A DNA stretch of 64,000 bases, from contig NZ_VTWS01000013.1 in the NCBI RefSeq assembly GCF_008727875.1, positions 1-64,000 of the forward strand. The letters run 5' to 3'. The DNA is from Larkinella humicola. Lineage in GTDB: Bacteria; Bacteroidota; Bacteroidia; Cytophagales; Spirosomataceae. A program made the translations under genes and the position numbers. Shown in pieces: positions 30,052-62,850 of the stretch (its first letter is position 1; each line of letters starts with the position of its first letter). Below the pieces are notes generated by a model. It made no database searches. It was not told the DNA's origin and worked only from the letters and a program-made list of their open reading frames with translations.

Positions 30052-30082
30052 TTACAAGATTTCCCAGAAATGTTATAGAATT
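30052..30082 (-). promoter_or_regulatory. Copper-regulon operator (21-bp-phased half-sites)
   Basis: On the forward strand TTACAAGATT (30052) and TTATAGAATT (30073) are 21 bp apart; transcription runs on the reverse strand toward the DUF305 gene. The -7 box at the expected place is weak (TATACTG, shifted by one to two bases). Confidence 0.6.
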
Positions 30083-30161
30083 TTTGGGTATTACCTTGCT
30101 CAAATATTGATGAAACTCGAATAGCCGTTTTTATTCGAAACTTTTCGTCTTTTCCTACCGT

Positions 30162-30866
30162 CTACTGCGTTGCTTTTGGGTGCGCGTGTTCACGGCCATC
30201 TGCGTGTCCTTCCCCATGTTGTTCCAGGTAAGCCCCCCGCGGACCGATACCATACTGATAAGTTAAAACACCTCCCTGATGACCGGCTAGCCCAACGGCT
30301 ATTCCGGCGCATACCAGAGCAGCTGCTGTCACCGTTTCAAGCCATTTTAGCGGCTGCCATAACGTGATCGCTTTGAACAGCGTGCCGAATCCCCCCAGCC
30401 AGAGGGAATAGTCGGCATACAGCTCATGTGCTTCCAGAACCAGTTGCGCGGCCTGGCTGATGCCTGATGTATGGGGATGGACTAATGTACTGGCCACGTA
30501 GGCCCCAACCGTTCCCCCGGCAGCCAGCAGGAGCGTCAACCCATGCACAGGGCGCGATGGTTTGACCAGAGCGATTAGCTGTAATAGTCCCGCCAGGATT
30601 AGTAACATGATGGGGACATGGACCACCATGGGGTGATAAGTCGGGTAGTCGGCTAAGGGAGCGGGCATCGGGGCGATTGACTGAACCTGCTTCCTGGTGA
30701 TCGTGTCGGTAATTCGATCACCAACTTGGGAGGCCGGACTCATGACCACATTATGGCGGGTTGAATCCGGCTGTGGTTTCTTTTTGGGATGACCCGGATG
30801 GGCGTAACTTATGTGAAAGTTTACCAGCAAGAAAACCAATAATCTTAAGGCTCGGAGTTGTTTCAT
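30162..30866 (-). CDS. DUF2231-type membrane protein
   Basis: 234 residues. A signal-like start (LRLLVFLLVNFHISYA) is followed by a short His/Lys region and then PMVVHVPIMLLILAGLLQL, the DUF2231 signature of a first membrane helix with HxP. Four membrane helices follow in all, and the C-terminus is His-rich (GEGHADGREHAHPKATQ). DUF2231 proteins are quinone- or cytochrome-linked in some genomes, and their role here is not known. It follows the DUF305 gene on the same strand by 164 bp, and no copper operator is seen before it. Confidence 0.7.
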   Translation of the reverse strand: MKQLRALRLLVFLLVNFHISYAHPGHPKKKPQPDSTRHNVVMSPASQVGDRITDTITRKQVQSIAPMPAPLADYPTYHPMVVHVPIMLLILAGLLQLIALVKPSRPVHGLTLLLAAGGTVGAYVASTLVHPHTSGISQAAQLVLEAHELYADYSLWLGGFGTLFKAITLWQPLKWLETVTAAALVCAGIAVGLAGHQGGVLTYQYGIGPRGAYLEQHGEGHADGREHAHPKATQ

Positions 30867-31090
30867 GGTAGGGCACTATTATGGACCAGTTTGCCTAATA
30901 GATAGTTAATCTGGTCAGTTTGAAAATACGTTTAAGTCTAATTTAAATGCAGGTAAGGGATGTGTCCCTGCAGGTGGTCGAAGTGCTGAAGTCCCTAGAA
31001 TAACAGACATATCAGCTTATTTCCATACTGCGTACAGACGCCAATAGAAATTGCCTTATAGCCGCCAGTGGGCGTTCTTGGCAAGATGAT

Positions 31091-31552
31091 TCAAACCAGC
31101 CAAATACTGAGGGATATTAACCTGAAACGCCCGGAATGGATGAGCGGATTATCCAGCAGGGTTGCCGCAAAAGCGATTCCATTCACGGGAAACAACACGG
31201 TCAACCACCGCCTAAAATTAAATGGCAAATGGTGTACTCCTTCAACCGGGTGCAACACCACTACTTGAACGAGGTTGCTTTGTTCGGTTTTTAAATGGTT
31301 GTAGTAACAGTCTTGACTGCAACAGGGCGTCTTATGAATACCCGAAGATTTTTCCGGCATAGGACACTCTTCTTGCGGATCACAGGCGCTTTGACAATCA
31401 TTGGGCATCAGCCGAACTTTAACTTGTTCCCCACGCATCAAACACCAATGGTCAACCACAACAAATCCACTACTCCCCAGCAGCACTGACACCGCCAGCC
31501 ATAAGCACAGCGGACGGTTTAAAAAGGAAAACTGAGTAGTGGAACTTTTCAC
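31091..31552 (-). CDS. Cysteine-rich single-signal protein, HYC_CC_PP-like
   Basis: 153 residues with an N-terminal hydrophobic segment (LCLWLAVSVLLGSSGFVVV) followed by DHWC, a CDPQEEC loop and a PCC motif (KTPCCSQDCYYN near residue 75). The order H-x-C then CC resembles the HYC_CC_PP family seen near Bacteroidota copper genes. The only suitable start is GTG at 31552. The -7 box (31557-31564) ends 5 bp from it, so the message is leaderless or begins just inside. It is under a copper-type operator (31587-31617). Confidence 0.55.
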   Translation of the reverse strand: MKSSTTQFSFLNRPLCLWLAVSVLLGSSGFVVVDHWCLMRGEQVKVRLMPNDCQSACDPQEECPMPEKSSGIHKTPCCSQDCYYNHLKTEQSNLVQVVVLHPVEGVHHLPFNFRRWLTVLFPVNGIAFAATLLDNPLIHSGRFRLISLSIWLV

Positions 31553-31556
31553 ATTA

Positions 31557-31617
31557 CAAACTTAATTGAATACGATTGCTTAGGTATTGTAATATTTTTC
31601 AGTGGGTTTATAAAACT
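31557..31617 (-). promoter_or_regulatory. Copper-regulon promoter of the HYC-like gene
   Basis: Reading with transcription, half-sites at 31617-31608 and 31596-31587 (AATATTACAA nearest the gene) are 21 bp apart. The -7 box TAAGTTTG (31564-31557) follows after exactly 22 bp. Confidence 0.65.
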
Positions 31618-32253
31618 TTTCGTTTCCGCATATTCTGCTTCATTCCCTAGGGCGGAACTTTCTTTTGGTGACTTCGCCCGAAAAGGAGGTTTAACCTTCC
31701 AAAAGCGTCTCAACCCATTCGGGGCTTTTTTTTCCACGTAATTCCCATAAGCCCGTCGTTCGGGAAATACCCGTGTTACGACGCTCAACTGAGATGCGGC
31801 AGAAAAAAGGGGTACCATAAATTTTGTAACTCCCTGGATGAATATTGCAAAAACTCAATCCGGTCTTAGGAGTTCTATTCTTGAAACTCTTCGATATCCT
31901 ACTATGAAAATAACATATCTCTTCAGTGTTCCTTAGATCAATCTAGGGCCATTGTATTTTTGATTGGAATCGCTAAACCAAGCAAGCGCTGGTTAACTAA
32001 CGATTAGACGCCAATGTGAGTGATAATCCGGTCGATTTATACCGATCCTGCTTAGTCCATGATTCAGAAGATTCACCGATTAAAACAGGTAGACTCTTGT
32101 TTTTCTCTTCCATATGGCAGATCTAAGCTCTCCCAGCGCAATAGGTGGTCAGTAGTTAGGAGAAAGACCGTACCAAATGCAGAGGAAAATTACGTGGCCA
32201 TTCAGAGAAGCTTTTTAACCTGTATCACAAATACATTCTTATAAATCGTAATC
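31618..32253. other. Intergenic region, no gene supported
   Basis: About 640 bp between divergent genes. The reverse frame at 31549-31818 lacks coding character. TATTTTTG near 31955 matches the -7 consensus but is about 300 bp from the DUF305 gene and has no copper half-sites. I see no repeat or RNA I can defend. Confidence 0.35.
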
Positions 32254-32895
32254 ATGAACAAAATCTATCGTAAGCTGTTTTCGTACGTCTTTCTGGGTAC
32301 TTTTTTCTCTTTAGTAAGCTGTTCCGACCACCGCGACGAGGCGGTCTGTCTAGAAATCCAACCGCATGATGAGAATGTCTTCATGCAGATCAACCACCAT
32401 ATGATGGAGGAAATGGATATGATGCAGCATACCAATGATCCGGACCATGATTTTGCCATGATGATGTCGATGCACCATCAAAGCGCTATTGATATGTCAC
32501 AAGAGGAGCTCAAGAGCGGAGATAATTCGCAGATGAAGGAGATGGCTCAGCGGGTAATTGACGCTCAGCAGGCGGAAAAAGCCATGCTCCAACAATACCT
32601 ACAGTCTCACACTCCGGTGGCGGAGCCAGATGGTCCAACGTTTAATTCGGAATCGATGATGTCCATGGACAAAATGATGAAGGCACAGGACATCCGGGTG
32701 CTCTCCGAGGATAGCGACGTAACGTATGCGCAGCTACTGATCGATCACCACCAAAGTGCTCTAGAGATGGCCATGGCCGAATTGGCTTACGGGGATGATC
32801 CGATGATTCGGGAGATGGCCAGCAAAATGATTGAAGATCAGCGAAAAGAGATCATGGAACTCCAGGATTGGCTCATCAAAAACAAACCTTTCTAA
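32254..32895 (+). CDS. Tandem DUF305 lipoprotein
   Basis: 213 residues with a lipoprotein signal (FLGTFFSLVSCSDH). Two DUF305 units follow: DHDFAMMMSMHHQSAIDMSQ near residue 67 and TYAQLLIDHHQSALEMAMAE near residue 165. It is rich in Met and His in the linker between the units (MMSMDKMMKA). The Csp-type gene follows after 34 bp, so the two are probably cotranscribed: envelope metal binding with cytosolic storage. Confidence 0.85.
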   Translation: MNKIYRKLFSYVFLGTFFSLVSCSDHRDEAVCLEIQPHDENVFMQINHHMMEEMDMMQHTNDPDHDFAMMMSMHHQSAIDMSQEELKSGDNSQMKEMAQRVIDAQQAEKAMLQQYLQSHTPVAEPDGPTFNSESMMSMDKMMKAQDIRVLSEDSDVTYAQLLIDHHQSALEMAMAELAYGDDPMIREMASKMIEDQRKEIMELQDWLIKNKPF

Positions 32896-32929
32896 TAGAC
32901 TTTTTCATCTTAACTCGAAAACCAAATCC

Positions 32930-33274
32930 ATGTCACACGAAAAATATCTAGGCTGCATCGAAGCCTGCCAGACATGCGCCGTTGCCTGTGACCATTGCGC
33001 TAATGCCTGTCTGATGGAACCCAACGTTCAAATGCTGGCGGAGTGCATTCGCCTGGATCGGGCCTGCGCCCTCATTTGCCAGACTGCCGTAGCCTTTATG
33101 GCTTCCAATAGCCCCTTTACTATGCAGGTTTGTGAACTTTGTGCCCGTATTTGTGAAGCCTGTGCGGCCGAGTGTGAAAAGCACGCACACCATCATGAAC
33201 ACTGCCGCCAGTGCGCTGAAGCCTGCCAGCGGTGCGCCGAGGCTTGCCGGAGCCAGATGAGCATAACGGCGTAA
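32930..33274 (+). CDS. Four-helix-bundle copper storage protein (Csp3-like)
   Basis: 114 residues from the ATG at 32930 (MSHEKYLGCIEACQTCAVAC). It has 19 cysteines spaced three or four apart along four helices, with a His-rich loop (EKHAHHHEHCRQC) before the last helix. Csp proteins line a helical bundle with thiolates and store many Cu(I) ions. No signal peptide is visible, so it belongs to the cytosolic group. The longer open frame from 32831 overlaps the preceding gene in another frame and was not used. A decayed homologue is at 15024-15351. Confidence 0.9.
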   Translation: MSHEKYLGCIEACQTCAVACDHCANACLMEPNVQMLAECIRLDRACALICQTAVAFMASNSPFTMQVCELCARICEACAAECEKHAHHHEHCRQCAEACQRCAEACRSQMSITA

Positions 33275-33451
33275 AACAAAACAAAGAATCCTTATAACAT
33301 CGTCTGTCGGGAAGTAAGCGTACTCAGAAAGAGCCCTTTCCTCGGTAGTTCAAGTAATCAGTAAAAGTGGCACAAAACTTTAACCTTAACTCATTAAATA
33401 CCTAATCATCAAGCACTTGTTTTCGTATTTTTGTTCTTTTTAATTAGATTG

Positions 33452-33543
33452 AGTAGTTTATACAGCGTTGCGGACCTTTGGTTCGGCACAACGGGCGACG
33501 GCGTTCATAAATATGACGTGAAATCGTTAAGCCAATTTACATT
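33452..33543 (+). pseudogene. Fragment of a two-component-regulator propeller repeat
   Basis: The frame reads SSLYSVADLWFGTTGDGVHK then YDVKSLSQFT. This closely resembles one blade of the Reg_prop propeller (LWFGT-GDGV--YD-KS---FT) of Bacteroidota hybrid sensors. Nothing else of such a gene is present. It is a relic of 30 codons. Confidence 0.5.
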
Positions 33544-33746
33544 TGATCCATCACACCCTGTTGGTTTGAATGGCCCATGTCTGCCGAACTCGTATGCGGG
33601 GGCAGATTTCCCACGTTCTGTTCTCCCTTTTGCTGAGCGGGTTGTGTCGGCTGGAGCGGTACCCTGGGGTGATGCTGATGCTGCCCAAAAGAGAAGCTGA
33701 ACAAACCCCAGTTAGTCAGAATAAGGAGTAGGATTCTTTTCATCAT
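33537..33746 (-). CDS. Small secreted His-containing protein, unknown
   Basis: 69 residues from ATG 33746 (MMKRILLLILTNWGLFSFSF). A signal peptide is followed by GQHQHHPRVPLQPTQPAQQK and a Gln/Gly-rich tail ending VMDQM. It lies immediately downstream of the copA terminator on the same strand. It could be a periplasmic copper-binding peptide. No family is recognised, and coding status is moderate. Confidence 0.45.
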   Translation of the reverse strand: MMKRILLLILTNWGLFSFSFGQHQHHPRVPLQPTQPAQQKGEQNVGNLPPHTSSADMGHSNQQGVMDQM

Positions 33747-33770
33747 GCTAATACAAAATATAAAGTAAAA

Positions 33771-33808
33771 AAGCGGCACAGGCTTCTTGTGATCAGCCCG
33801 TGCCGCTT
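33771..33808 (-). terminator. Rho-independent terminator after copA
   Basis: In the reverse direction AAGCGGCAC and GTGCCGCTT form a 9-bp stem (33800-33808 with 33771-33779), followed by a run of T (TTTTTTACTTTATATTTTG). Confidence 0.8.
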
Positions 33809-33936
33809 CAATGTAGTAAATAAGCCGGTTGATTCATACCCTACCTAATCAGAACAGTAGGATAACCCATCAGATTAAAAAGTGTCCTGCTAAACGGCTT
33901 GTAATATTTAGCGTTAAAGATTACAGAATTACTCCC

Positions 33937-36219
33937 TTATAACTTAGTTACCTTAAGTCGTAGACTATTGGTAACCACCGAAACGGAGCTTAAGGCCATA
34001 GCTGCCCCGGCAATCATGGGGTTGAGCAAAAAGCCATTAAACGGAAAAAGGAGACCAGCTGCGATAGGTATTCCAATCACGTTATAGATAAAGGCCCAAA
34101 ATAGATTTTGCCGAATGGTCTGCACGGTTTTTTTCGAGAGTTGTAATGCCTTCGGGATACTTCCTAAATCGGACGTAATCAACGTCATCTTGGCGACATC
34201 CATAGCAATATCTGATCCGCGGCCCATCGCGATACTTACATCCGCTTGCGCCAGTGCCTGGGAGTCATTGATGCCATCCCCAACCATTGCTACCACTTTT
34301 CCCTGGTTTTGTAGCTGCTTGACAAATTCGGCTTTATCATTCGGTAGGGCTTCAGCACGGAAATCTGTAACACCTACTTCCTGCGCCACGGCCGATGCCG
34401 TTTGCCGATTATCGCCCGTCATCATATAGACCTCGATACCACGGCGTTTCAATGTCTGAATGGCTAACCGTGAGGTCTCTTTGATGGGGTCGGCGATAGC
34501 AATAATGGCTTTGACGGATGTTTTATCGAAGAAATAAACGACCGTTTTGGCCTGATTCTGCCAGCGATCAGCCAACTCATTCGCCTGCGGAATCATCTTA
34601 ATTCCTTCTTCTGCCAGCAGGCGGGGATTGCCGACGAAGTATTTCTCTCCTTGATAATAACCCGTGACACCGCGACCCGTTAGGCTCTCAAAGCCGTCCA
34701 ATTGAGCTCCTTTGACGCCATCCGCTTTCAATCTTTCCAGTACCGCTTCCGCAAGCGGGTGTTCCGATTGAGCTTCCAGGGCGTACAATACTTCATGAAG
34801 GTAATTGGGGGTTGTTTTGGGCATAAACCATTCCAGATTGGTTACTTTTGGTCGGCCTTCCGTGATGGTTCCCGTCTTATCCAGAATCACGGCATTTACT
34901 TTATAGCCTAGTTCGAGGCTTTCTGCATCTTTAATGAGGATGTTGTTTTCTGCTCCTTTGCCAACACCAACCATGATGGCCGTTGGAGTAGCCAGTCCCA
35001 GGGCACATGGGCAGGCAATCACCAAGACCGTGACTGACGTTAGTAAAGCATGGGTAAACGCATTATCACCACCAACAATCATCCAGGTGACAAACGTTAG
35101 GAGCGCAATTCCAATCACCACGGGAACAAAGATGCCTGCGATTCGGTCTACCAACTTCTGTACCGGGGCTTTACTACCTTGCGCTTCCTGAACCATTCGA
35201 ATGATTTGGGCCAGTATGGTATCGCCACCTACCTTTTCAGCCTGGAATCGAAAAGCTCCTTTTTGATTGATGGTCCCGGCAAAAACCTTTTCACCTTCCT
35301 TTTTTTCGACGGGTACCGGTTCGCCGGAAATCATGCTTTCGTCAACACACGAGTAACCTGAATAAACGACACCATCCACCGGAATCTTTTCGCCGGGTCT
35401 CACAATTACAATTTGCCCAACCCGGACCTGGGCAATCGGTATTTCGCGCTCGATCCCCTCTTCGATAATACGTATCGTTTTAGGTTGCAGGCCCATGAGT
35501 TTCTTCAAGGCTGAGGATGTATTAGATTTGGCTTGTTCCTCCAGCAACTTTCCTAGTGAGATGAAGGCAATGACGACTGCTGCTGCTTCAAAATAGACGT
35601 GTGGGTGGACTCCGCGACTATGCCAGAAATCAGGATTGACAGTGTTAAAAACACTAAAAATGAAAGCGATACCCGTTGATAGGGCCACCAGCGTATCCAT
35701 ATTGGCATTTCCGTGACGAGCCTGTTTCCAGGCATTGACAAAAAACGGGCGGCCCAGGTAGAATACCACTGGTGCTGACAAGGCCATCATGATCCAGTTG
35801 GCATAGGGCAGCGATCCTGAGTCCCCGTCCATAAAGAACATACCAATAACGACAACCGGAATCGAGAGGATAACCGCCCAAAGAGTTCGTTTTTTTAAGG
35901 CTTTATAGTTTCGCTGCTGGGCTTCTTGTTGCACCTGCTGGGGATTCTCCTCATCAATAATAAGATCATATCCAATTGATTGAATCGCATTCTGTAACGC
36001 CTGCTGAGTCACCGCTTTGGGGTCATACTCCACTGTCGTTGACTGGTTAGCATAGTTTACGGATGCATCAACGACGCCTGGCGTATTTTTGAGCATCGAT
36101 TCCACACTGATGGCACAGGCGGCACAGGTCATTTCCAGTACCGGATAGGTTTTTTTCACAACTCGACCCCCTCGGTTTTTGACCGGGGAAGGAGCAATAT
36201 CTTCAGGATTGACTTTCAT
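33937..36219 (-). CDS. copA: Cu(I)-exporting P1B-1 ATPase
   Basis: 760 residues with one HMA domain near residues 20-90 ([17 protein letters not shown]), the TM6 motif CPC ([15 protein letters not shown]), phosphorylation site [13 protein letters not shown] motif ([14 protein letters not shown]), hinge [15 protein letters not shown], and the final helix with [15 protein letters not shown] (MxxSS, Cu(I) group). It moves Cu(I) from cytosol to periplasm. The alanine/serine version NDSQAL of the usual NDAPAL is seen and occurs in other members. Upstream it has a copper-regulon promoter (36247-36308). A terminator follows at 33771. Confidence 0.93.
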
Positions 36220-36246
36220 AGCTGTTCGCTTTTAACCTTTAGAAGG

Positions 36247-36308
36247 CAAAATTACTAAGCTGGCCAACTGGAGACGTTATATAATACCGGGAGATGTTTT
36301 GTAATATT
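36247..36308 (-). promoter_or_regulatory. Copper-regulon promoter of copA
   Basis: In the direction of transcription the near half-site is TATTATATAA (36286-36277) and the far one AATATTACAA (36308-36299, here at 22 bp instead of 21). The -7 box TAATTTTG (36254-36247) follows the near half-site after exactly 22 bp. A leader of about 20 nt precedes the copA ATG. Confidence 0.6.
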
Positions 36309-36459
36309 TAAGTATTGATCGATGTATTTATCCATAATTGAGGTGGGTCCTTCCAGTAAATTTTAGGTACCCGCTTACGTTTTCGACAGATAAGCCATGA
36401 CTGGTTTTATATCGAATGTGTGAAATTAAATCTAGCTAACCCAATTTATAGAGTCTATT

Positions 36460-36852
36460 TCATTTACTTACCAGTTGTAAGAATTGAGCCAAATCAGCTC
36501 CGGTCATATCGGCAACTTTCATTGAAAAAAACTTCTCTTTAGCCGCATTCCGTTCGGCAAGCCGGTACTGGCTGAGTAACTCCTGAATCATTTGGGGATT
36601 TTTAATAGCAAGCCCCAGTAGTAACATGGGGTTACTTTCGCCATTGGTGCGATATAATTTATAATCATCGGACCTGTTTTTTATCTGCTTCTCACCAAAT
36701 TCCAGCAGTTTTCGAATAGCGGGTAGAACCGTATCACTATCTGCTTGCGAATAATGGCCGTTTTGAACCTGTTGTTGCAATTCGCCCTGATTGACTTTAA
36801 CAATAAATTTTTCAATACCTTCTAATTCTTCACTGCTGATTTGAGGTTCCAT
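36460..36852 (-). CDS. Small cytosolic helical protein, unknown
   Basis: 130 residues, mostly helical by eye (EELEGIEKFIVKVNQGELQQ, then AIRKLLEFGEKQIKN). No cysteines, no signal peptide and no membrane segment. I do not recognise the family. It lies between copA and the HMA-AraC gene, which ends 52 bp upstream of it on the same strand, so it may be cotranscribed with the regulator. Confidence 0.5.
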   Translation of the reverse strand: MEPQISSEELEGIEKFIVKVNQGELQQQVQNGHYSQADSDTVLPAIRKLLEFGEKQIKNRSDDYKLYRTNGESNPMLLLGLAIKNPQMIQELLSQYRLAERNAAKEKFFSMKVADMTGADLAQFLQLVSK

Positions 36853-36904
36853 TTTATGTTACGGGGGGTCTGTTTTAGATAGGAAATATTTATTGGTGAT
36901 AATC

Positions 36905-37489
36905 CTAAGAATTCATGTGTTCCGTTATTCGATGGCGAACTTCATCGCGTTCTGCTTTAATCATTTTAAAGTGGGAAGGTGATAATCCCGTGACTTGTTT
37001 AAACTGGTTGGATAAATGCTGGAGACTGCTGAAACCGGTTCGATAGGCAATTTCCGATAGGGTCAGGTCGGAGTAAACCAGCCATTCTTTTACTTTGTCA
37101 AGTCTTTTTTCAATGGTGTATTTTTCAATTGTAATCCCCTCATAACCAGAGAATAGCGAGCTTAATGTGTCGTAGTCTGCGCCCGTTTTCTCTTCAAGCA
37201 GGTCGGAATAACGGACTTTATTGTCACCTAAATCATCTCGTTGCAAGGTTTCCTGGATGAGGTCTTTTACCAGTTGAATGAGTTCAGCCTTCCGATCAAC
37301 CAATAAGGAAAACCCCAAAGTCTCTAATCGCTTACTGAGTTCGTGTAACTGCTTCGTATTGATAGAAGAGACGGCTGCCACACCTAGTTGAACGTCGGTT
37401 GGTACCAACCCCAAGGTCTTCAATTCCCCTTCGACGGCTTGGATGCATCGTCCGCAAACCATACCCCGTATCCGCAATTCTGTATTCAT
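36905..37489 (-). CDS. HMA-AraC regulator, predicted copper-sensing transcription factor
   Basis: 194 residues in two parts. Residues 1-70 are an HMA-like domain with the metal motif GMVCGRC (LRIRGMVCGRCIQAVEGELK). Residues 110-185 are an AraC-type DNA-binding domain: TIEKYTIEKRLDKVKEWLV and then SEIAYRTGFSSLQHLSNQFK with QVTGLSPSHFK. The HMA cysteines would sense Cu(I), and the HTH pair would bind phased half-sites. The gene itself has such a promoter about 190 bp upstream (37685-37745), so it may autoregulate. A homologue is at 63081. The binding sites and copper response are inferences. Confidence 0.8.
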   Translation of the reverse strand: MNTELRIRGMVCGRCIQAVEGELKTLGLVPTDVQLGVAAVSSINTKQLHELSKRLETLGFSLLVDRKAELIQLVKDLIQETLQRDDLGDNKVRYSDLLEEKTGADYDTLSSLFSGYEGITIEKYTIEKRLDKVKEWLVYSDLTLSEIAYRTGFSSLQHLSNQFKQVTGLSPSHFKMIKAERDEVRHRITEHMNS

Positions 37490-37684: not shown

Positions 37685-37745
37685 CAAATGTATACCGACA
37701 TGGTTTATGTACTGTTGTAAAATTTGGGGTGTAACTTATAAGATT
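37685..37745 (-). promoter_or_regulatory. Copper-regulon promoter toward the HMA-AraC gene
   Basis: Forward-strand half-sites TTGTAAAATT (37715) and TTATAAGATT (37736) are 21 bp apart. On the reverse strand the -7 box TACATTTG (37692-37685) follows after exactly 22 bp. The start codon at 37489 would have a leader near 190 nt. Confidence 0.6.
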
Positions 37746-37816
37746 ATAGCTTCTTAACACGACAGCTATTTTGAGTTACAAGGATGTAGGTCGTTGAAAA
37801 AATAAACACCGGCAAA

Positions 37817-37877
37817 AATTTTATAAGTGAGAGCCTAAACCTTGTAAGGCGAATGGTACCCCTTTCGAGTTACTTTG
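37817..37877 (+). promoter_or_regulatory. Copper-regulon promoter of copB
   Basis: Half-sites AATTTTATAA (37817) and AACCTTGTAA (37838) are 21 bp apart. The -7 box TTACTTTG (37870-37877) follows after exactly 22 bp. It places the start of transcription near 37884, so the ATG at 37853 is excluded as a start. Confidence 0.7.
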
Positions 37878-37909
37878 TATATCGAATCATTTTCATACTC
37901 GATTTTAAA

Positions 37910-40366
37910 ATGAAACATCAACATCACTATTGGTTGCATGGCTTGTCCAAAGCCCATGAATTGGAAGCAGTTCGGGTTGCTCTCCAAAAACATCCCGACA
38001 TTCTGGATGCGGAGGTTACGTTAAATCCGCCCCAGGTAATCGTTACCGTTGGAAAACATCCCATCTTGGCGGAACTTCAGCAGGTAGTTTCTACTGTAGG
38101 GTCATTTCATCTGATGGAAGTCGAAAAGGGGAATGAAACGACCAAGCACCCCCATCATGGCTCGTATCACCAGGCTGCGGAGGGAGAAGCATCAGTTGCC
38201 CATGATACCCGGAAAAATAATCCAAGCCAAATACCCGATCACCTCAGGGATCCTCCTGCTGTGCAGCAGTCCCTACAGCATATTGGGCATGATGATCACA
38301 GCGGTCCGATGGACACGGACCCTGGTAGCGTAGGGAAAGTCGACGTGATGAATCATGATCACCACCAGAGTCATTCCCATTCCCATGGGAGTTCAATGAA
38401 TCAGGAGGGACATACCGGCGGCCATGATCATGGTGCCATGATTGCCGATTTTCTGCGTCGATTTTGGGTATGCCTGGTGCTTTCTGTACCCGTCATCGCC
38501 TTTTCCATGATGTTTCAGGAAGTGGCGGGCTATCACCTGGATTTTCCCTATCGCGACTGGATCGTCATGAGCTTGGCCACAGTCATTTATTTTTACGGTG
38601 GCTGGCCGTTTCTGACCGGTTTGATCGGTGAGATCCGCAGGCGTCAACCCGGAATGATGACCCTGGTAGCGGTCGCTATAACCGCAGCCTACGCCTACAG
38701 CATGGTGGTCGCTCTGGGTATTCTGCCGGGTATGGATTTCTTTTGGGAGCTGGCTACCCTGATTGATATTATGTTGGTGGGTCATTACCTGGAAATGAAA
38801 TCCGTTGCCGGAGCCTCACACTCACTGGAATTGATTGTTAAAATGCTTCCTTCCGATGCCCATTTAGTGAATGGCGATGAAATTCGTGACGTCAAAGTTG
38901 ACCAGCTTACCATTGGCGATATTGTTTTGGTACGTCCCGGTGAGCGGATTCCGACCGATGGTGAGGTAGTTGAAGGGAACAGCTTTGTCAATGAAAGTAT
39001 GCTGACGGGGGAGAGTGTGCCGGTGCAAAAAGAGCAACAAGATACTGTCATAGCCGGGGGCATCAATGGCGAAGGCGCTTTAAAAGTGAAAGTAACCCAC
39101 CAAGGGGCAGATAGTTACCTCAACAAGGTTGTTAAGCTGATTCAGGAGGCTCAGGGTGCGAAATCACAAACTCAAACGCTGGCCGACCGGGCTGCCGGAT
39201 GGTTAACCCTAATTTCTTTAACCGTAGGGGTCATTACACTATTGTTCTGGCTGTTTAGCGGTAAGGATACGGCATTTGCGGTCGAACGAATGGTGACCGT
39301 CATGGTTACGTCCTGTCCGCATGCCCTGGGAGTGGCGATTCCCCTTGTCGTGGCAATTTCCACCACTATTTCCGCGCAAAAAGGATTGTTGATCCGAAAC
39401 CGAACAGCTTTTGAAGAGTCCCGAAAAATAACAGCGATGGTTTTCGATAAAACCGGCACCTTAACGGAAGGGCAATTCGGTGTGACCCGCGTCGTGTCAC
39501 TCGTGGATCAAGTAGATGAAACGGCATTGATTCGCACAGCCACGGCCCTGGAGCAACAATCGCAACACCCCATCGCCCAGGGTATTGTACGGGAAGCAAA
39601 GACCCGTAACCTGGCACCACTTTCCATTAGTGACTTTCAGTCGATTACGGGGAAGGGCATTTCAGCCACCGTGGATGGAAAAAAAGTGGCTGTAGTGAGT
39701 CCTGGCTACCTAAAGGAAAATGGGATCGAATTGCCCAAAGGCGCCTATAGCAGTGGAGCGGAGACAGTTGTCTTTGTTCTGCAAGACCAACAAATAATTG
39801 GATTCATTGCACTGGCTGATACGATTCGATCAAACTCTAAAGAAGCTGTACAACGTTTGCAGGAAGCGGGTATCAAGGTCTATATGGCGACGGGTGATAA
39901 TCAAAAAGTGGCCGATGCCGTAGCGAAGGAGTTAGGTCTGGATGGGGTTTTTGCTGAGGTGTTGCCGGATCAAAAAGTTCGGATTGTAAAAGACTTACAG
40001 CAAAAAGGCCAATTTGTGGCAATGACTGGTGATGGGGTCAATGATGCACCGGCCCTTGCACAAGCCAATGTGGGCATCGCCGTTGGGTCAGGCACGGATG
40101 TAGCGGCAGAAACCGCCGACATTATACTGGTCAACAGCAATCCTACCGATATTACCAATCTGGTTGAGTTCGGCAAAGCCACCTACCGAAAAATGATTCA
40201 AAATCTTATTTGGGCTACCGGGTATAATGTGGTGGCTATTCCATTGGCTGCCGGGGTTTTATACCCCAATTTTGTCCTAAGCCCGGCGCTGGGCGCTGTC
40301 CTGATGAGTGCCAGCACGGTAATTGTTGCGTTGAACGCCCAATTATTAAAACGTGAGATAAATTAA
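37910..40366 (+). CDS. copB: Copper P1B-3-type ATPase with His-rich N-terminus (CopB type)
   Basis: 818 residues from ATG 37910 (MKHQHHYWLHGLSKAHELEA). The N-terminal domain has an HMA-like fold but lacks CxxC (WLHGLSKAHE). A long His-rich stretch (DHHQSHSHSHGSS, GHTGGHDHG) precedes TM1. The TM6 motif is CPH (VMVTSCPHALGVAIPL), the mark of the CopB group, which has been reported to transport Cu(II)/Cu(I)/Ag. Other motifs are DKTGTLTEG, SQHP and GDGVNDAPALAQANV. The upstream start at 37853 lies before the -7 box and was rejected. It is under a copper-type operator. Confidence 0.9.
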   Translation: MKHQHHYWLHGLSKAHELEAVRVALQKHPDILDAEVTLNPPQVIVTVGKHPILAELQQVVSTVGSFHLMEVEKGNETTKHPHHGSYHQAAEGEASVAHDTRKNNPSQIPDHLRDPPAVQQSLQHIGHDDHSGPMDTDPGSVGKVDVMNHDHHQSHSHSHGSSMNQEGHTGGHDHGAMIADFLRRFWVCLVLSVPVIAFSMMFQEVAGYHLDFPYRDWIVMSLATVIYFYGGWPFLTGLIGEIRRRQPGMMTLVAVAITAAYAYSMVVALGILPGMDFFWELATLIDIMLVGHYLEMKSVAGASHSLELIVKMLPSDAHLVNGDEIRDVKVDQLTIGDIVLVRPGERIPTDGEVVEGNSFVNESMLTGESVPVQKEQQDTVIAGGINGEGALKVKVTHQGADSYLNKVVKLIQEAQGAKSQTQTLADRAAGWLTLISLTVGVITLLFWLFSGKDTAFAVERMVTVMVTSCPHALGVAIPLVVAISTTISAQKGLLIRNRTAFEESRKITAMVFDKTGTLTEGQFGVTRVVSLVDQVDETALIRTATALEQQSQHPIAQGIVREAKTRNLAPLSISDFQSITGKGISATVDGKKVAVVSPGYLKENGIELPKGAYSSGAETVVFVLQDQQIIGFIALADTIRSNSKEAVQRLQEAGIKVYMATGDNQKVADAVAKELGLDGVFAEVLPDQKVRIVKDLQQKGQFVAMTGDGVNDAPALAQANVGIAVGSGTDVAAETADIILVNSNPTDITNLVEFGKATYRKMIQNLIWATGYNVVAIPLAAGVLYPNFVLSPALGAVLMSASTVIVALNAQLLKREIN

Positions 40367-40941: not shown

Positions 40942-41949
40942 ATGGACATTCACTATTTCATTGGGGTTGATATCTCTAAAGCTACCTTAGACTGGGCGGT
41001 CTTTAATGGCCAAACTGTCGTCTTGCAATGTCAGTCGGCCAATTCCGAAATCGCCATTAAAGAGACCCTCAAACTCATCAAAGTACTGCCTGGTTTTACA
41101 GGGACCAAGTCGGTGTGCTGTATGGAGCATACCGGCATTTACAATGCCCACCTGCTAACACATTTACACAAAATTAAACTGCCTATTTGGCTCGAAAGCA
41201 GCTTACAGATTAAAAAAGCAGGCGGTTTGCAACGCGGTAAAACCGATACAATTGATGCCGTTCGCATTGCCCAATACGCTTTTCGCTTCCGCGATCAGAT
41301 GCGGCTTTGGCAACCTCCGCGCCCCGTTTTACAAAAACTGGCGGCACTTAGTGCCATGCGGCAACGCTTGTTGCAGGTACGCCAACAACTCCAACAACCG
41401 ATTACTGAACAGCAGGGCTTCATCGACAAGGCTCTCCAAAAGCAGTTGATGAAAAGCTGTCAGGCTTCACTCAAAGCGCTCAATGCCGACCTACAAAAGG
41501 TTGACCAACAACTCGCCCAACTCATTCAGAGCGATGAGCGCCTGAAAGAATTAGTCGACTGGATGACTTCTGTGCCCGGTATTGGTAGTGCGACCGCCAC
41601 CGAAGTGCTGGTCGCTACGGACGAATTCAAACAGTTCACTGACCCTAAAAAACTGGCCTGTCATGCCGGGGTTGCTCCTTTTGAGTACAAGTCAGGGAGC
41701 AGTGTTCGGGGCAAAACCAGCGTCAGCCAACATGCCCGAAAACGGTTGAAATCGCTCTTCCACTTAGGAGCTATGTCAGCTATCCGCATGAAGGGCGAAC
41801 TCCAGGACTATTACCGACGTAAAGTGGCCGAAGGCAAGAACAAAATGCTTGTTCTCAATGCCGTTCGCAATAAGCTGATTCATCGGGTTTGCTCGGTCGT
41901 CCACCGGCAGCAGAAATATGACAAAAATTATGTCCTTTCACTTGCATAA
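40942..41949 (+). CDS. IS110-family transposase (recombinase)
   Basis: 335 residues. The RuvC-like N-terminal domain has GVDISKATLDWAVF with the first acidic residue and later DTIDAVRIAQYAF (DEDD). The C-terminal Tnp_20 domain holds VPGIGSATATEVL and ACHAGVAPFEYKSGSS, in which the serine nucleophile is expected, then GKTSVSQHARKRLKSLFHLG. These recombinases use a bridge RNA encoded in the element to choose target and donor. Intact and of normal length. Confidence 0.92.
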   Translation: MDIHYFIGVDISKATLDWAVFNGQTVVLQCQSANSEIAIKETLKLIKVLPGFTGTKSVCCMEHTGIYNAHLLTHLHKIKLPIWLESSLQIKKAGGLQRGKTDTIDAVRIAQYAFRFRDQMRLWQPPRPVLQKLAALSAMRQRLLQVRQQLQQPITEQQGFIDKALQKQLMKSCQASLKALNADLQKVDQQLAQLIQSDERLKELVDWMTSVPGIGSATATEVLVATDEFKQFTDPKKLACHAGVAPFEYKSGSSVRGKTSVSQHARKRLKSLFHLGAMSAIRMKGELQDYYRRKVAEGKNKMLVLNAVRNKLIHRVCSVVHRQQKYDKNYVLSLA

Positions 41950-41962
41950 ACCATGGAAATCC

Positions 41963-52706: not shown

Positions 52707-52708
52707 AA

Positions 52709-57360: not shown

Positions 57361-57362
57361 GA

Positions 57363-58715: not shown

Positions 58716-58843
58716 AAAAGAATACGTTATTGCATAATAGATAGCGCTTAACCTACCAATTGGTAGATATCATTGAGTTACGCGCTTTTGTTTTAGGGGA
58801 ATAACCGAAAGGCCACAAGGTCAAAGCTATGTCGTTGCCTGGC

Positions 58844-59218
58844 TTATAGTCTGAACGTTTCGACGAGCAGGAGAATATCCCGGACGGGAGAGGTAGGAAG
58901 GTAAGAAAAACTACGACGGGTTGCCAAATCCGACTGGGCCAGCAAATAGCAATACAACAGTGCAAAGTTAGGTCGAGGTTTTAAAACGGATTGCTGATCC
59001 GCTTGTGGGGCAACGACCTGAATTGTGCTCAGAAGAAGTGCGGGACGCTCAATTGAGGAAAGACAGGTCATATCCTGGCACTCCGATACGGGTACCTCGC
59101 AGCAGGGACAGGCTGACTCTTGCATAGCCACACAGGCCGGTGCTGCTACCAGACCGGTGCTTACCGTCACGAGCCAGAAAATCCAACCCAATAGGGCTAT
59201 GTGTTTGAGTGATCGCAT
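58844..59218 (-). CDS. Secreted Cys-rich protein, first gene of the second Cus operon
   Basis: 124 residues. A signal peptide (IALLGWIFWLVTVSTGLVAA) is followed by a cysteine cluster: PACVAMQESACPCCEVPVSE and QDMTCLSS. The distal half is not distinctive. I do not recognise a family. It has the best copper-regulon promoter in the window (59241-59301), with perfect half-sites and -7 box, and precedes the pump genes. A periplasmic copper-binding role is likely but not proved. Confidence 0.6.
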   Translation of the reverse strand: MRSLKHIALLGWIFWLVTVSTGLVAAPACVAMQESACPCCEVPVSECQDMTCLSSIERPALLLSTIQVVAPQADQQSVLKPRPNFALLYCYLLAQSDLATRRSFSYLPTSPVRDILLLVETFRL

Positions 59219-59240
59219 ACGTAACTATTCTTCTACTAAA

Positions 59241-59301
59241 CAAAAATAGGGCTTTGCGGATTTATGCGTGTTACAAAATTAAGTGTCGGTCTTACAAAAT
59301 T
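59241..59301 (-). promoter_or_regulatory. Copper-regulon promoter of the second Cus operon (reference copy)
   Basis: Reading with transcription: AATTTTGTAA (59301-59292), 11 bp, AATTTTGTAA (59280-59271), exactly 22 bp, TATTTTTG (59248-59241). Both half-sites are identical and the -7 box matches TAnnTTTG. Leader of about 15 nt. Confidence 0.75.
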
Positions 59302-59319
59302 TCGAAATATATCCTTGCA

Positions 59320-60396
59320 TCAGAGCTGATTCTGAAGTGGTTGGACGATTACATCCGGTGTAAGTGGGAATCCTCGGCACAGTAATACTTGACCGGACCT
59401 GATTTCGTCCAACGTTAAAATATGATTGCGTTCCATGTCCACTTTTCCCCGAATCAATTGAGCCCGACAACTGCCGCACTGCGCTTCCCGACACGAATAA
59501 GGTAGTTTTAGATCAGCGGCCAAGGCCGCATCCAGAATACTTTGACCGCTGGCAACTGTAAAGGATTGGATCAGGCCAGTGTATAGAACCTGAACGGTTT
59601 GAATGGGAAGGCTGGAATAATCGCGTGGAGAGTTCACGCCTTGGGCAGGTACAAAAAATTGCTCTTTAAAGCGTTGGTTAACAGGAATAGTCAGGGATTC
59701 GAGTGCTTGTTCAATGAGTTGCATAAACCCGAAGGGGCCACACAGATAGAATTCGGTCGGCAAGGGAATCATAGTCTGAAGCTGGGCAACAAACTTCTTA
59801 ACCAGTAGGCGACTGAGGCTTCCTTTGAAATAGACCCGTTGAAGTTCCGCATCGGCTAAGTCCGTGTATTGATCGAGAGCATGATAGACCAGAAAACGAT
59901 CAGGATAAGCCGTCTGCAATTTGTCTAATTCCACCCGGAAGACGATGTTTTCCCAGGATCGATTGGCATAAAGTAAAGAAAGAACAGAATGTGGCTCGGT
60001 GTATAGTATGGACCGAATCATCGAATACAAAGGGGTAATACCGCTACCACCGGCGAATAGAACCAGATGGCGATGGTTAACCGAATTTGGAACTGTATAA
60101 AACTGGCCTAGAGGTCCCTCGACGGTCAACGGCATTTCCGGTTTGGCGTAATCAACCAGATAATTCGACAGAACTCCATCTGGGATACGTTTCACGGTGA
60201 TGGCTAATTCGGAATCCATTACAGGAGATGTACTCAATGAGTACGTCCTTGTAATGGGTTTTTGGTCCACAATCGCTGTCACGGCCAGGTGTTGACCTGG
60301 ATAATAGGTAAGCCCATTTTCCGGGGTATCAAAATAGAGTGTTACTGTATCTGTCGTAGGGTGTACGACTCGTTTAATGGAAAGGCTCGTTTTCAT
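59320..60396 (-). CDS. Ferredoxin-NAD(P)H reductase-type flavoprotein with [2Fe-2S] domain (PaaE-like)
   Basis: 358 residues from ATG 60396 (MKTSLSIKRVVHPTTDTVTL). The FAD-binding motif is RTYSLSTSP near residue 51. The NAD(P)-binding part is HRHLVLFAGGSGITPLYSMI. The plant-type ferredoxin domain is C-terminal with cluster ligands CREAQCGSCR and VLLCRG. Such enzymes pass electrons from NAD(P)H to an oxygenase or other acceptor. The start at 60420 is not possible because the -7 box spans 60418-60425. It is under a copper-type operator (60448), so a copper-stress role, for example repair or reduction of a redox partner, is inferred. Confidence 0.85.
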   Translation of the reverse strand: MKTSLSIKRVVHPTTDTVTLYFDTPENGLTYYPGQHLAVTAIVDQKPITRTYSLSTSPVMDSELAITVKRIPDGVLSNYLVDYAKPEMPLTVEGPLGQFYTVPNSVNHRHLVLFAGGSGITPLYSMIRSILYTEPHSVLSLLYANRSWENIVFRVELDKLQTAYPDRFLVYHALDQYTDLADAELQRVYFKGSLSRLLVKKFVAQLQTMIPLPTEFYLCGPFGFMQLIEQALESLTIPVNQRFKEQFFVPAQGVNSPRDYSSLPIQTVQVLYTGLIQSFTVASGQSILDAALAADLKLPYSCREAQCGSCRAQLIRGKVDMERNHILTLDEIRSGQVLLCRGFPLTPDVIVQPLQNQL

Positions 60397-60417
60397 GGTA
60401 TTCTTTAGACAACCGCA

Positions 60418-60478
60418 CAAAACTAGAGGTCGGCAGCAGCCAGTCCGTTACAAAATTGCCGGGAAGCTTTGTAGTTTT
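60418..60478 (-). promoter_or_regulatory. Copper-regulon promoter of the reductase gene
   Basis: Near half-site AATTTTGTAA (60457-60448) is perfect. The far one at 21 bp (60478-60469) is degenerate. The -7 box TAGTTTTG (60425-60418) follows the near half-site after exactly 22 bp. Confidence 0.6.
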
Positions 60479-60559
60479 TTGTTATAGGGGGGCAGCTAGG
60501 TAAGGCCCGTTGGTAACCTCGAATACTTCTATTTATTTAGGCTTTAAATCGTATTAGCT

Positions 60560-61615
60560 ATGAGAACCCTGTTTCGTTTTTGCTTTTTCTTCCTTTTTCT
60601 ACTGACTTTTTGGGCGGCCAAACCGATTGAAACGGATCAGACGCTAGCCGCTGGGAAAATGCCTGTTATTATCGCAGACCGAAAGGGGGCCATTCACCTG
60701 GTATTTGGTCGGAATGATACGGTATTTTATGCTTCCTCAGTGGACAAGGGTAAATCATTCTCCCGGCCCGTACCGGTTGCCCATCTCCCCAAATTGGTCT
60801 TGGGCGCTACCCGTGGCCCCCAAATTGCGGTCACTGATAAAACGGTACTCATCACGGCGATGAACCAGACTGGTAATGTCATGGCCTATTCAATGACTCG
60901 GGCCAGCCGGAAGTGGTCACCAGCCATCCGGATCAACGACCAGCCGGATATTGCCAAAGAGGGTTTTCATGCAATTGCTGGATCGGACGGCGGGCCCTTC
61001 TATGCGGTCTGGCTTGATCTTCGGGGGGATAATCACAATAAAATTGTGGGTGCCCGCTCGACGGATGGTGGGCGTACCTGGACACCAAACCAAGTGATTT
61101 ACCAGTCGCCCGACCAAACCGTGTGCGAATGCTGCCGGGTGTCGGTGGCTGCGAAGGGTAATCATGTATACGTCATGTTCCGAAATTCGGTCAATGGCTC
61201 TCGTGATCTGTATCTGGCCGGATCGAAAGATGGAGGCAAGAAATTCCTGCCGGCGCAAAAACTTGGGACGGGAACGTGGAAGCTGAAAGCATGTCCCATG
61301 GATGGTGGAGGGATAGCCCTAACGGAGGACGGTCAGCCTATTACGGTATGGAGACGTGAAAGTTCGCTGTATCAGTGTCGGCCGGGTGAATCCGAGCAAT
61401 TGCTGGGTCAGGGAAAGAATGTGGCCATAGCGGCTGTTGCCGATCATTGGGCAACCACCTGGCAAAAAGATGGGATTATTTTCATTCAACCCGTTAATCA
61501 AAAGCCAATTGAGGTAGGGAAAGGGCAGACGCCCAGTATCGCCTTCGCGGGCTCCGTTGTGGTGTGTACCTGGGAAAGTGAAAAGCAGGTTAAAGTAGCT
61601 TCGATTGCTTTGTAG
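60560..61615 (+). CDS. Secreted sialidase-like beta-propeller protein with CxCC motif
   Basis: 351 residues with a signal peptide (LFRFCFFFLFLLTFWAAKPI). It has Asp-box/BNR-like motifs (SVDKGKSFSRP, STDGGRTWTP, SKDGGKKFLP) at about one per blade, so it is a sialidase-fold propeller. A CECC motif near residue 192 (SPDQTVCECCRVSVAA) and a second cysteine before MDGG (KACPMDGGG) are not part of sialidase catalysis and could bind copper. Catalytic sialidase residues are not evident. It is divergent from the ferredoxin-reductase gene and convergent with the HMA protein gene. Confidence 0.65.
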   Translation: MRTLFRFCFFFLFLLTFWAAKPIETDQTLAAGKMPVIIADRKGAIHLVFGRNDTVFYASSVDKGKSFSRPVPVAHLPKLVLGATRGPQIAVTDKTVLITAMNQTGNVMAYSMTRASRKWSPAIRINDQPDIAKEGFHAIAGSDGGPFYAVWLDLRGDNHNKIVGARSTDGGRTWTPNQVIYQSPDQTVCECCRVSVAAKGNHVYVMFRNSVNGSRDLYLAGSKDGGKKFLPAQKLGTGTWKLKACPMDGGGIALTEDGQPITVWRRESSLYQCRPGESEQLLGQGKNVAIAAVADHWATTWQKDGIIFIQPVNQKPIEVGKGQTPSIAFAGSVVVCTWESEKQVKVASIAL

Positions 61616-61629
61616 GTTCTCGGTTTTTA

Positions 61630-61702
61630 CCGGAGCACACCAATTAAAACGACAAAGACGGCCCTTGGAACCGTCTTTGTCGTTTTAATTGGTGTGCTCC
61701 GG
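61630..61702. terminator. Very long perfect hairpin between convergent genes
   Basis: A perfect 32-bp inverted repeat: left arm 61630-61661 (CCGGAGCACACCAATT followed by AAAACGACAAAGACGG), loop CCCTTGGAA, right arm 61671-61702. The inner 16 bp (AAAACGACAAAGACGG with CCGTCTTTGTCGTTTT) already make a normal bidirectional terminator. The outer 16 bp extend it to the stop codon of the HMA gene. Confidence 0.75.
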
Positions 61703-61915
61703 TCAGTTCAGTTGTTCCGCTTTATAACCGGCGTTCTCTACGGCTTTTTTAACCTGTTCCGCTGAAATTCCTTCTGCCACAACGGTTAATACCTTGTCGG
61801 GATTCTCCGTATCGACTTCCCAGTTTTCTTCCCCAACCGCTTCATTGAGGAATGGTGTTGCTTTGGCAATGCAACCGCTGCACTTGATATTGGTTTTGAA
61901 CTTTACCGCTTCCAT
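61703..61915 (-). CDS. Small HMA-domain copper chaperone (CopZ/Atx1-like)
   Basis: 70 residues, a single HMA domain: VKFKTNIKCSGCIAKATPFL with the CxxC-like site CSGC, ending AVENAGYKAEQLN. It would carry Cu(I) in the cytosol to CopA or to the HMA-AraC sensors. A copper-regulon promoter (61950-62010) lies 35 bp upstream. A decayed copy is at 25556. The start is the only ATG in frame at this position. Confidence 0.85.
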   Translation of the reverse strand: MEAVKFKTNIKCSGCIAKATPFLNEAVGEENWEVDTENPDKVLTVVAEGISAEQVKKAVENAGYKAEQLN

Positions 61916-61949
61916 AATGGAGGTTTTTTAATGAAACAAATTACTGATG

Positions 61950-62010
61950 CAAAGGTCGTCGTGGAATGGAAAGGGGACGTTACATAATTTCGGATCCAAA
62001 TTGTAACATT
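61950..62010 (-). promoter_or_regulatory. Copper-regulon promoter of the HMA chaperone gene
   Basis: Forward-strand half-sites TTACATAATT (61980) and TTGTAACATT (62001) are 21 bp apart. On the reverse strand the -7-like box GACCTTTG (61957-61950) follows after exactly 22 bp; its first base departs from TAnnTTTG. Confidence 0.6.
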
Positions 62011-62156
62011 GTTGAGGCCAGTAGGCTAGGATCACTGGTTTCTCACAAAGTCTTTCTGTATAGAAACACATCTGAAAGAAAGAACTTTACCTTGAAGCGA
62101 CCATTTAATATGATTCGGCAGAGCTACCCAAAAAGGGAATTAAGGAATCAAGAAAG

Positions 62157-62759
62157 TTATCGGGTGGGTTGAGCTCTTAATGCTTTTATTTCCTGTTTTA
62201 AGCGTTTACGGCTCTGATGAAGAGATCGAAAGTGAGTAACCGGCAACCCCGTCTCCGTGATCAAGTGGCCGGCCATCTGTTGGACTGACTCGTACCCCAT
62301 GCGTTCGGCAAGAAAAGGAAAAGGCCAGTCGGTATACACCAGGAACTCTTTGACTTTATCGATCCGCTGAAGGATCAGGTATCTTTCAAAGCTCACGCCT
62401 TCTACGCTTAGAAATAGGGCCTCTAATTGGTTTGCGGATGATCCTAATTCAGTGGAACAAAATTTCAACTCATTCCAGGCGATAGGCTGTTGTATTAATT
62501 TGTCCAACTCCAGCTCAATCCAGGATTGCGTCCCACAAAAAATAATTTGAGAAGCTTCGTCAAGCCGAGTCATATTCAAAGCATGTAATGCTTCGTCCAG
62601 TAGGTAGTGAGCGTTAATTTGGGATAACCCGGAAAGGGTAAGCCAATTACCACGACTGGTTTTAATTTGAAAACCTATTTTAGCTAATTTATGCTGTAGA
62701 ATTTCTTGTCTGCCGGACCCTTTCAGTCCTTGTATGGCAATGGTCTGCACATCTTCCAT
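62157..62759 (-). CDS. AraC-type regulator, diverged paralogue lacking the HMA cysteines
   Basis: 200 residues. The AraC half is clear (ILQRIDKVKEFLVYTDWPFP, then LAERMGYESVQQMAGHLITE, TGLPVTHFRSLH) and aligns with the regulators at 36905 and 63081. The N-terminal 70 residues have the same length and helix pattern (IAIQGLKGSGRQEILQHKLA) but lack CxxC, so it cannot bind copper in the same way. Its own promoter has a copper-type operator (62790-62850). It might be an antagonist or a decaying duplicate. Confidence 0.7.
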   Translation of the reverse strand: MEDVQTIAIQGLKGSGRQEILQHKLAKIGFQIKTSRGNWLTLSGLSQINAHYLLDEALHALNMTRLDEASQIIFCGTQSWIELELDKLIQQPIAWNELKFCSTELGSSANQLEALFLSVEGVSFERYLILQRIDKVKEFLVYTDWPFPFLAERMGYESVQQMAGHLITETGLPVTHFRSLHQSRKRLKQEIKALRAQPTR

Positions 62760-62789
62760 GTCTAATCAATCTTACTTGTAGAGAACGGA

Positions 62790-62850
62790 CAAATCTCGCT
62801 TAGAATTGAAGGATTACTATTATAAAATTGGCGTACAATTTTACAGAATT
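62790..62850 (-). promoter_or_regulatory. Copper-regulon promoter of the diverged AraC gene
   Basis: Forward-strand half-sites TTATAAAATT (62820) and TTACAGAATT (62841) are 21 bp apart. On the reverse strand the box GAGATTTG (62797-62790) follows after exactly 22 bp; its first base departs from TAnnTTTG. Confidence 0.6.

Follow-up and report, generated by a model that had tools for sequence, protein, structure and literature searches.

Promoters in the copper region of Larkinella humicola follow a common plan, in which two direct 10-bp half-sites repeated at 21 bp are followed, 22 bp further on, by the box TAnnTTTG. The window analysed here comprises bases 1-64000 of contig NZ_VTWS01000013.1 (C4 below; 125,546 bp, in a genome of 7.86 Mb). 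It is very likely, in our judgement, that this pattern acts as operator and promoter for HMA-AraC, a family of short proteins (~190 aa) found across Bacteroidota which join an HMA domain bearing MVCxRC to an AraC-type DNA-binding domain, and that it serves Cu(I)-triggered class II activation. As judged from its matches, the pattern is spread over Bacteroidota and is not peculiar to this genome.

The operator pattern on the contig

Written as AATNTTRYAA-N11-AATNTTRYAA-N22-TANNTTTG and allowing at most 3 mismatches, the pattern matches eight times in the window and not once in any of 100 dinucleotide shuffles, a check that the first-pass annotation had proposed. The half-site pair without the box (at most 2 mismatches) matches 11 times, against a shuffle mean of 0.17 and a maximum of 1. 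When spacing and gap are both varied, the eight window matches fall at spacing 21 and gap 22, and every spacing but 21 yields 0-3 per cell; cells at spacing 21 with other gaps hold 2-6 matches, since a half-site pair by itself is enough to count. Across the whole genome, the full pattern at the same threshold finds 10 matches, nine of them on C4 at 31.5-66.9 kb, and the reversed pattern finds none. The isolated match at C11:1216342, before an open reading frame (ORF) that by eye resembles a short-chain dehydrogenase, was set aside as probable chance.

The consensus behind these counts was drawn from the very sites under test and is to that extent circular; the pattern was therefore tested independently in the loci of other organisms. 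Tests in those loci, and a weight matrix trained only on 76 sites of other organisms, are free of the circularity. Run over all of C4 at spacings 20-22 and gaps 20-23, with deviations penalised, this foreign-trained matrix scores above 20 at 11 distinct sites; its controls reach 16 at most. They comprise all nine promoters reported in the first-pass annotation and two more: 31820(+), which had been overlooked, and 66896(-), which lies 2.8 kb past the window. The plan described for the nine holds in its particulars, with half-sites spaced by 21 bp in eight and by 22 bp in copA, and a gap of 22 bp to the -7 box in 8/9; the exception is the DUF305 site, best at 20 with a poor box, as had been allowed for. 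A chance or compositional origin could appeal to AT-rich intergenic DNA, in which single half-sites are common, but the shuffle, reversed-pattern, spacing and foreign-matrix controls are all contrary to it, and we give it practically no credence.

The distance from box to start codon is 19-34 bp at 8 of the 11 sites. It is longer for HMA-AraC 1 (195 bp) and for the gene downstream of 31820(+) (373 bp); for the HYC-like gene it is only 4 bp, counted from the listed start at 31552. As the copB site falls inside the listed copB frame, the sequence suggests that copB starts at ATG 37910.

Two further candidates were left uncounted for a weak score or box: 25784+ (25784-25844), before a DUF305 gene, and 26433+ (26433-26493), before a multicopper oxidase. 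Similar pairs occur in Spirosoma pSLIN02, and by eye the pair at 26433-26493 overlaps a hairpin and T-run, a possible terminator. With the foreign-trained matrix, no site scoring above 9 lies upstream of the first Cus operon (48215 down to 42423). Directly 3′ of copA, on its strand, a half-site pair at 22 bp (33899-33930) lacks a good -7 box and scores 12.2.

Linkage of the operator to HMA-AraC across Bacteroidota

The independent locus set consists of the best 80 of at least 596 matching stretches (584 confirmed), chosen only by their HMA-AraC protein with an alignment (A1) of 26 relatives as query. By title the loci are from Bacteroidota, one being labelled Ignavibacteria; that contig carries a site-bearing HMA-AraC locus (L105:4679). 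The half-site AAT..T[GA]TAA occurs 326 times in the 80 loci. Direct pairs number 22 at spacing 21, 2 at spacing 22 and 3 at all remaining spacings from 11 to 60, and inverted pairs in the same loci show no spacing peak. No promoter box entered into the choice of the 22 pairs, and TAnnTTTG stands at gap 22 exactly in 11 of them and with at most 1 mismatch in 16. At gap 21 the exact box is found in 2/22; the remaining gaps between 0 and 44 give no exact box. The -33 position of the 22 sites has no TTTG consensus, as is expected for an activator-dependent promoter. Two earlier attempts were discarded: the plasmid-type half-site AATNTTRYAA as the general form, which gave only 1 pair at 21 bp in other organisms, where the phylum-wide half-site is AATNNTRTAA, and exact 6-mer repeats by spacing, which were uninformative, the codon period dominating.

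A leave-one-locus-out weight matrix gives 76 matches above 16 in 55/80 loci and 0 in reversed sequences; 75 of the 76 lie on the strand of the HMA-AraC gene (the one in L079 is opposite). The first downstream ORF, readable for 75 sites, carries an HMA domain in 54 and is a P-type ATPase in 37 and AraC-type in 6, with five ArsP_1-type permeases, one OEP, one AcrB-type pump and one multicopper oxidase besides. In other organisms the commonest arrangement is an HMA-AraC gene followed by the site and by a copA-type ATPase gene that starts ~15-30 bp past the box. On the plasmids of Spirosoma linguale (pSLIN02) and Fibrella sp. ES10-3-2-2, foreign-matrix sites precede HMA-AraC and copA-type ATPase genes; the Fibrella plasmid has a further site before a gene that is HYC-like by eye, and further plasmid matches, L197:17066 and L198:17043 among them, have no assigned ORF.

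The phylum sample comprised 198 genomes at least 90% complete, 96 of them with a family member at E<=1e-35. AATNNTRTAA-N11-AATNNTRTAA-N22-TANNTTTG, with at most 2 mismatches, matches 256 times against 11 for the control in the 96 family-bearing genomes, and 9 times against 11 in the 102 without the family. Scored as presence with our own genome excluded, this is 50/95 versus 7/102 (Fisher, p=4e-13, an optimistic figure since the genomes are related). Omitting our genome and the genus denoted g45, 76 matches remain against 8 for the control in 86 genomes. Among 34 of these 76 sites that were listed, 20 lie within 15 kb of a listed family gene, and 17 of these share its strand (one family gene each of G377 and G302 is outside the listing).

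The genome has 26 AraC-type matches beyond the five family members, and another AraC-type or an unrelated regulator might bind the site, with HMA-AraC merely its neighbour and target. Such a regulator would have to account for the missing excess of sites in the 102 family-less genomes, and for sites that start no more than 200 bp past the end of the HMA-AraC match in 40/80 loci from many genera; we think it improbable.

In HMA-AraC 1, profile searches match residues 2-63 to CopZ, ATP7B and other copper HMA domains, and residues ~71-181 to AraC, MarA and SoxS. The AlphaFold2 model (mean pLDDT 92.9, pTM 0.70) has an N-domain of order E-H-E-E-H-E followed by AraC helices, and with Foldseek the leading matches are AraC domains, CopZ (6ff2) coming 35th. 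Pfam HTH_18 is over cut-off for the proteins at 36905, 62157 and 63081; the Pfam HMA model has no match at E 0.001 for those at 36905 and 63081. Across the 26-sequence alignment M10, V11, R14 and C15 do not vary and C12 hardly does, and MxCxxC lies within the first 60 residues in 116 of the best 120 (of 167) relatives of the copper query. Cu(I) binding by this motif would be expected from what is known of HMA domains. From the sequences, the best reading of the family is that its members are predicted Cu(I)-sensing class II activators that bind the direct repeat.

A probable subfamily-wide operator and the case for copper

Several observations weigh against a simple equation of the site with copper and HMA-AraC. 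Genus g45 supplies 171 of the 256 phylum matches, and 14 of the 34 listed sites outside it lie more than 15 kb from a listed family gene or on another contig. In the locus set, 25/80 loci have no site above 16, some of them stopping at contig ends. Within the window's own family (200 genomes, the protein present at E<=1e-25 in 160), the plasmid-type pattern with 3 mismatches matches in 174/200, more genomes than carry the protein; this narrower pattern is unspecific at three mismatches because several g13 genomes without the protein match, having one AT-rich match in common. The genome and locus samples are phylogenetically uneven. Residue 158 of the second recognition helix shows the strongest covariation with TAA/CAA half-sites, and C-type sites belong largely to one clade, with 1-3 independent pairs on the tree, so that this covariation was not used as proof. 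Finally, the first genes behind sites in the sampled g45 stretches (including L183-L188 and L195) encode ferritin-like/Dps proteins, catalase, DUF892, OmpA and others.

The g45 sample, probably Flavobacterium, consists of 20 stretches picked from the listed matches and mostly distant from listed family genes. Scanned were 29 of 30 distinct first downstream ORFs (a weak opposite-strand one, score 16.6, was omitted), and seven weaker or ORF-less matches gave no protein; among the 25 of 30 families listed, no HMA or copper ATPase occurs. One of the 20 stretches contains a family member that has lost MVCxRC (L187:2833-3432). Among the best 120 of its 3336 relatives, several of them named Flavobacterium, MxCxxC is found in the first 60 residues of none (0/120, versus 116/120 for the copper query). 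The sampled g45 sites form an apparent second, stress-type regulon.

The site may be common to all of the subfamily that has an HMA-like N-domain, irrespective of the signal, copper being one of several inputs and cysteine-less members running other regulons. With Dps/ferritin-like, catalase and other non-copper genes behind the sampled sites, we hold this to be likely, the single cysteine-less gene seen beside such sites and the choice of stretches mostly away from listed family genes counting on the other side. Because g45 sites precede non-copper genes and a cysteine-less member stands in one stretch, the operator would belong to the subfamily as a whole, and the site alone is insufficient to call a gene copper-regulated. 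The first-pass annotation had let the site assign unexplained genes to copper; that step is weakened, and in this window the assignment rests on the site together with the cysteine-bearing HMA-AraC genes and copper genes nearby. A subfamily-wide operator is compatible with copper here, given the two cysteine-bearing members and the copper genes around the sites, and copper is still the best assignment in this window because those two proteins stand among the sites. The cysteine-less paralogue at 62157-62759 could add another input.

In several g32 genomes of the window's own family, a second near-match recurs away from HMA-AraC genes (AATTTTGCAA, ATCTGTTTGAAC core, CGCAATG, TAnnTTTG) and may be another regulator's site.

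Proposed mechanism and comparison with known sensors

The operator, its spacing, the box, the gene set and the linkage to the regulator are borne out at the level of sequence, and the following mechanism is proposed to connect them. The MxCxxC loop in the HMA domain would take up Cu(I), and the loaded protein would bind the two direct AATNNTRTAA half-sites 21 bp, that is two helical turns, apart. With 22 bp between the end of the near half-site and the -7 box TAnnTTTG, the bound protein would replace the -33 element and touch sigma region 4, a class II arrangement to which both the geometry and the AggR analogue point. CopA, CopB, Cus efflux, CopZ-like chaperones and DUF305 genes would be switched on, and HMA-AraC would switch on its own gene as well, amounting to positive autoregulation. 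Much of this was anticipated in the first-pass annotation, whose views that the repeats are AraC-type direct repeats two turns apart, that the near half-site sits where an activator would touch RNA polymerase, that HMA-AraC is the likely binder and that a copper gene set lies behind the sites have all gained support.

The Bacteroides promoter consensus is given as TTTG/TAnnTTTG in the accessible portion of PMC10620806. Compared with the sigma ABfr promoter (-7 TAnnTTTG, -33 TTTG), the 22 sites of the locus set have the -7 box at a fixed distance, and a -33 consensus is not seen in them. Three of the four cytosolic copper-sensor families are repressors, according to the accessible part of PMC7558416, so that HMA-AraC might be imagined as a repressor released by copper; the near half-site in an activator's position, 22 bp upstream of the -7 box, and the absence of a -33 TTTG consensus in the 22 sites make this unlikely.

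AraC at araI1-I2 and XylS at Pm likewise use direct repeats with 21-bp phasing, the proximal half lying beside the -35 region; they differ from HMA-AraC in half-site sequence, in sensor domain and in a sugar or benzoate ligand. CopZ/Atx1 metallochaperones have the N-terminal fold and MxCxxC in common with HMA-AraC, which adds the AraC DNA-binding domain. Also close in promoter geometry is AggR of enteroaggregative E. coli, an AraC-XylS family activator with its site 21-22 bp upstream of the -10 element; in the portion of PMC6392122 available, 22 bp is the measured optimum for that distance and a contact with sigma domain 4 is proposed. There, a single site of another motif suffices, whereas the HMA-AraC operator has two direct half-sites at 21 bp and a Bacteroidota -7 box, and its protein a metal-binding N-domain.

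Four Cu(I)-sensing families controlling efflux, of the MerR, CsoR, CopY and ArsR types, are described in PMC7558416, in whose accessible text no word beginning AraC or Bacteroid occurs. As presented there, CueR, CsoR, CopY and ArsR sensors resemble HMA-AraC in cytosolic one-component control of copA-type exporters; their DNA-binding folds are unrelated to its AraC-type domain. No match to TIGR02044 (CueR), PF02583 (CsoR) or TIGR02698 (CopY) was found in this genome at the thresholds used. Among the 198 phylum genomes, CueR and CopY are over cut-off in 0, with weaker matches in 28 and 36, respectively. CsoR-type PF02583 occurs in 60, 43 of which are of one family (f16) and 7 of which also have HMA-AraC; as 7 of the 17 CsoR genomes outside f16 have both proteins, mutual exclusion is not supported. 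In the window's class, HMA-AraC is present in 44/49 genomes (a count that includes cysteine-less members) and a CsoR-type protein in 4/49; CueR and CopY are over cut-off in 0, with one CueR-like and one CopY-like match below it.

It is reasonably likely that HMA-AraC adds a fifth family to the cytosolic Cu(I) sensors and acts as the chief copper switch in the window's class and in much of Bacteroidota, with one operator code conserved throughout the phylum, and that cysteine-less descendants, retaining the operator, have come to govern a large stress regulon in a single genus, probably Flavobacterium. An AraC-type activator is a known kind of regulator; the putative copper-sensing fusion and the phylum-wide operator appear new, no description of either, or of a regulon with this site, having been found in the literature searched, in agreement with the first-pass annotation. 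Cytosolic copper sensing in Bacteroidota, major bacteria of gut, soil and water, falls outside the coverage of the available part of PMC7558416. A readable 61-bp operator would permit regulon prediction genome by genome, makes DUF305, HYC_CC_PP and ferredoxin reductase genes candidates for copper regulation, and is itself a possible copper-inducible promoter for Bacteroidota. The cysteine-less paralogues would plainly exemplify how a sensor domain can lose its ligand while the operator persists.

Coordinates of sites and genes in the copper region of C4, with site scores from the foreign-trained matrix
Feature	Position	Strand	Score	Remarks
DUF305 site	30024-30082	-	22.9	halves AATTCTATAA/AATCTTGTAA at 21 bp, gap 20, weak box TAGTTATA
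DUF305 gene behind it	29386-29997	-		start codon 26 bp past box
Site before HYC_CC_PP-like gene	31557-31617	-	28.1
HYC_CC_PP-like gene	31091-31552	-		HYC model E 0.001, 19.5 bits, under curated cut-off 28 (NF047658)
DUF2231-like gene, next after HYC-like gene	30162-30866	-		model score below cut-off
Added site, divergent from 31557-31617	31820-31880	+	22.0	weak box TTCTATTC
DUF305 gene, nearest long gene downstream of 31820(+)	32254-32895	+		373 bp on
copA site	36247-36308	-	34.3	spacing 22, gap 22, TAATTTTG; copA start 27 bp past box
copA, P1B-type ATPase with HMA domain	33937-36219	-		Pfam
HMA-AraC regulator 1	36905-37489	-		MVCGRC; HMA fold residues 3-63, AraC DNA-binding domain
Site before HMA-AraC 1	37685-37745	-	34.5	AATCTTATAA/AATTTTACAA, TACATTTG; start codon 195 bp past box
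copB site, divergent from 37685-37745	37817-37877	+	28.6
copB, second P-type ATPase	37910-40366	+		Pfam on ORF 37853-40366; start suggested
Perfect site	59241-59301	-	39.3	AATTTTGTAA/AATTTTGTAA, TATTTTTG
Cys-rich small ORF behind perfect site	58844-59218	-		followed by Cus operon
Cus operon behind perfect site	down to 50883	-		CusA in two ORFs, OEP, two CusB-type adaptors
Site before ferredoxin-reductase-like gene	60418-60478	-	31.4	gene start ATG 60396
Site before CopZ-like gene	61950-62010	-	34.7
CopZ-like gene	61703-61915	-		CopZ models below cut-off
Site before diverged HMA-AraC	62790-62850	-	25.4
Diverged HMA-AraC paralogue without MxCxxC	62157-62759	-		32% identity over DNA-binding half
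HMA-AraC regulator 2	63081-63737	-		MVCDRC; last gene of apparent operon
Site heading apparent operon	contig 66836-66896	-	38.1	outside window

The apparent operon behind 66896(-) encodes an HYC_CC_PP protein, a beta-propeller, DUF2911, DUF3347 and HMA-AraC 2. Against NF047658 (cut-off 28), L031:6371-6817 scores 32.2 bits, over, and L032:7571-8038 scores 20.4 bits, under. An IS110-type transposase (40942-41949) adjoins copB and a resolvase (L031:7854-8510) lies further along the contig, and these suggest that the copper region is a mobile island. A separate metal module, with an ArsR-type regulator and a MerT-HMA protein, is found at 24234-25222. The AcrB-type pump CusA is encoded in each of the two Cus operons as two adjoining ORFs of ~450 and 647 aa (57363-58715/55417-57360 and 46869-48215/44920-46860), and the pump on the Fibrella plasmid is likewise two permease ORFs (L198:6907-8292 and 8295-10238); by sequence the split looks conserved and not a frameshift.

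Elsewhere in the genome (G000), a chromosomal row at C11:1763383-1763910 (L032:7571-10959) contains an HYC-like protein, a TonB receptor and an HMA-AraC, and upstream of it lies, by eye, a diverged site-like pair ending TGTAC with TACTTTTG. An HMA-AraC with one cysteine lost (MVSVRC) stands at C17:29404-30018 (L033), with a half-site pair of spacing 21 and a gene of ice-binding-like type behind it.

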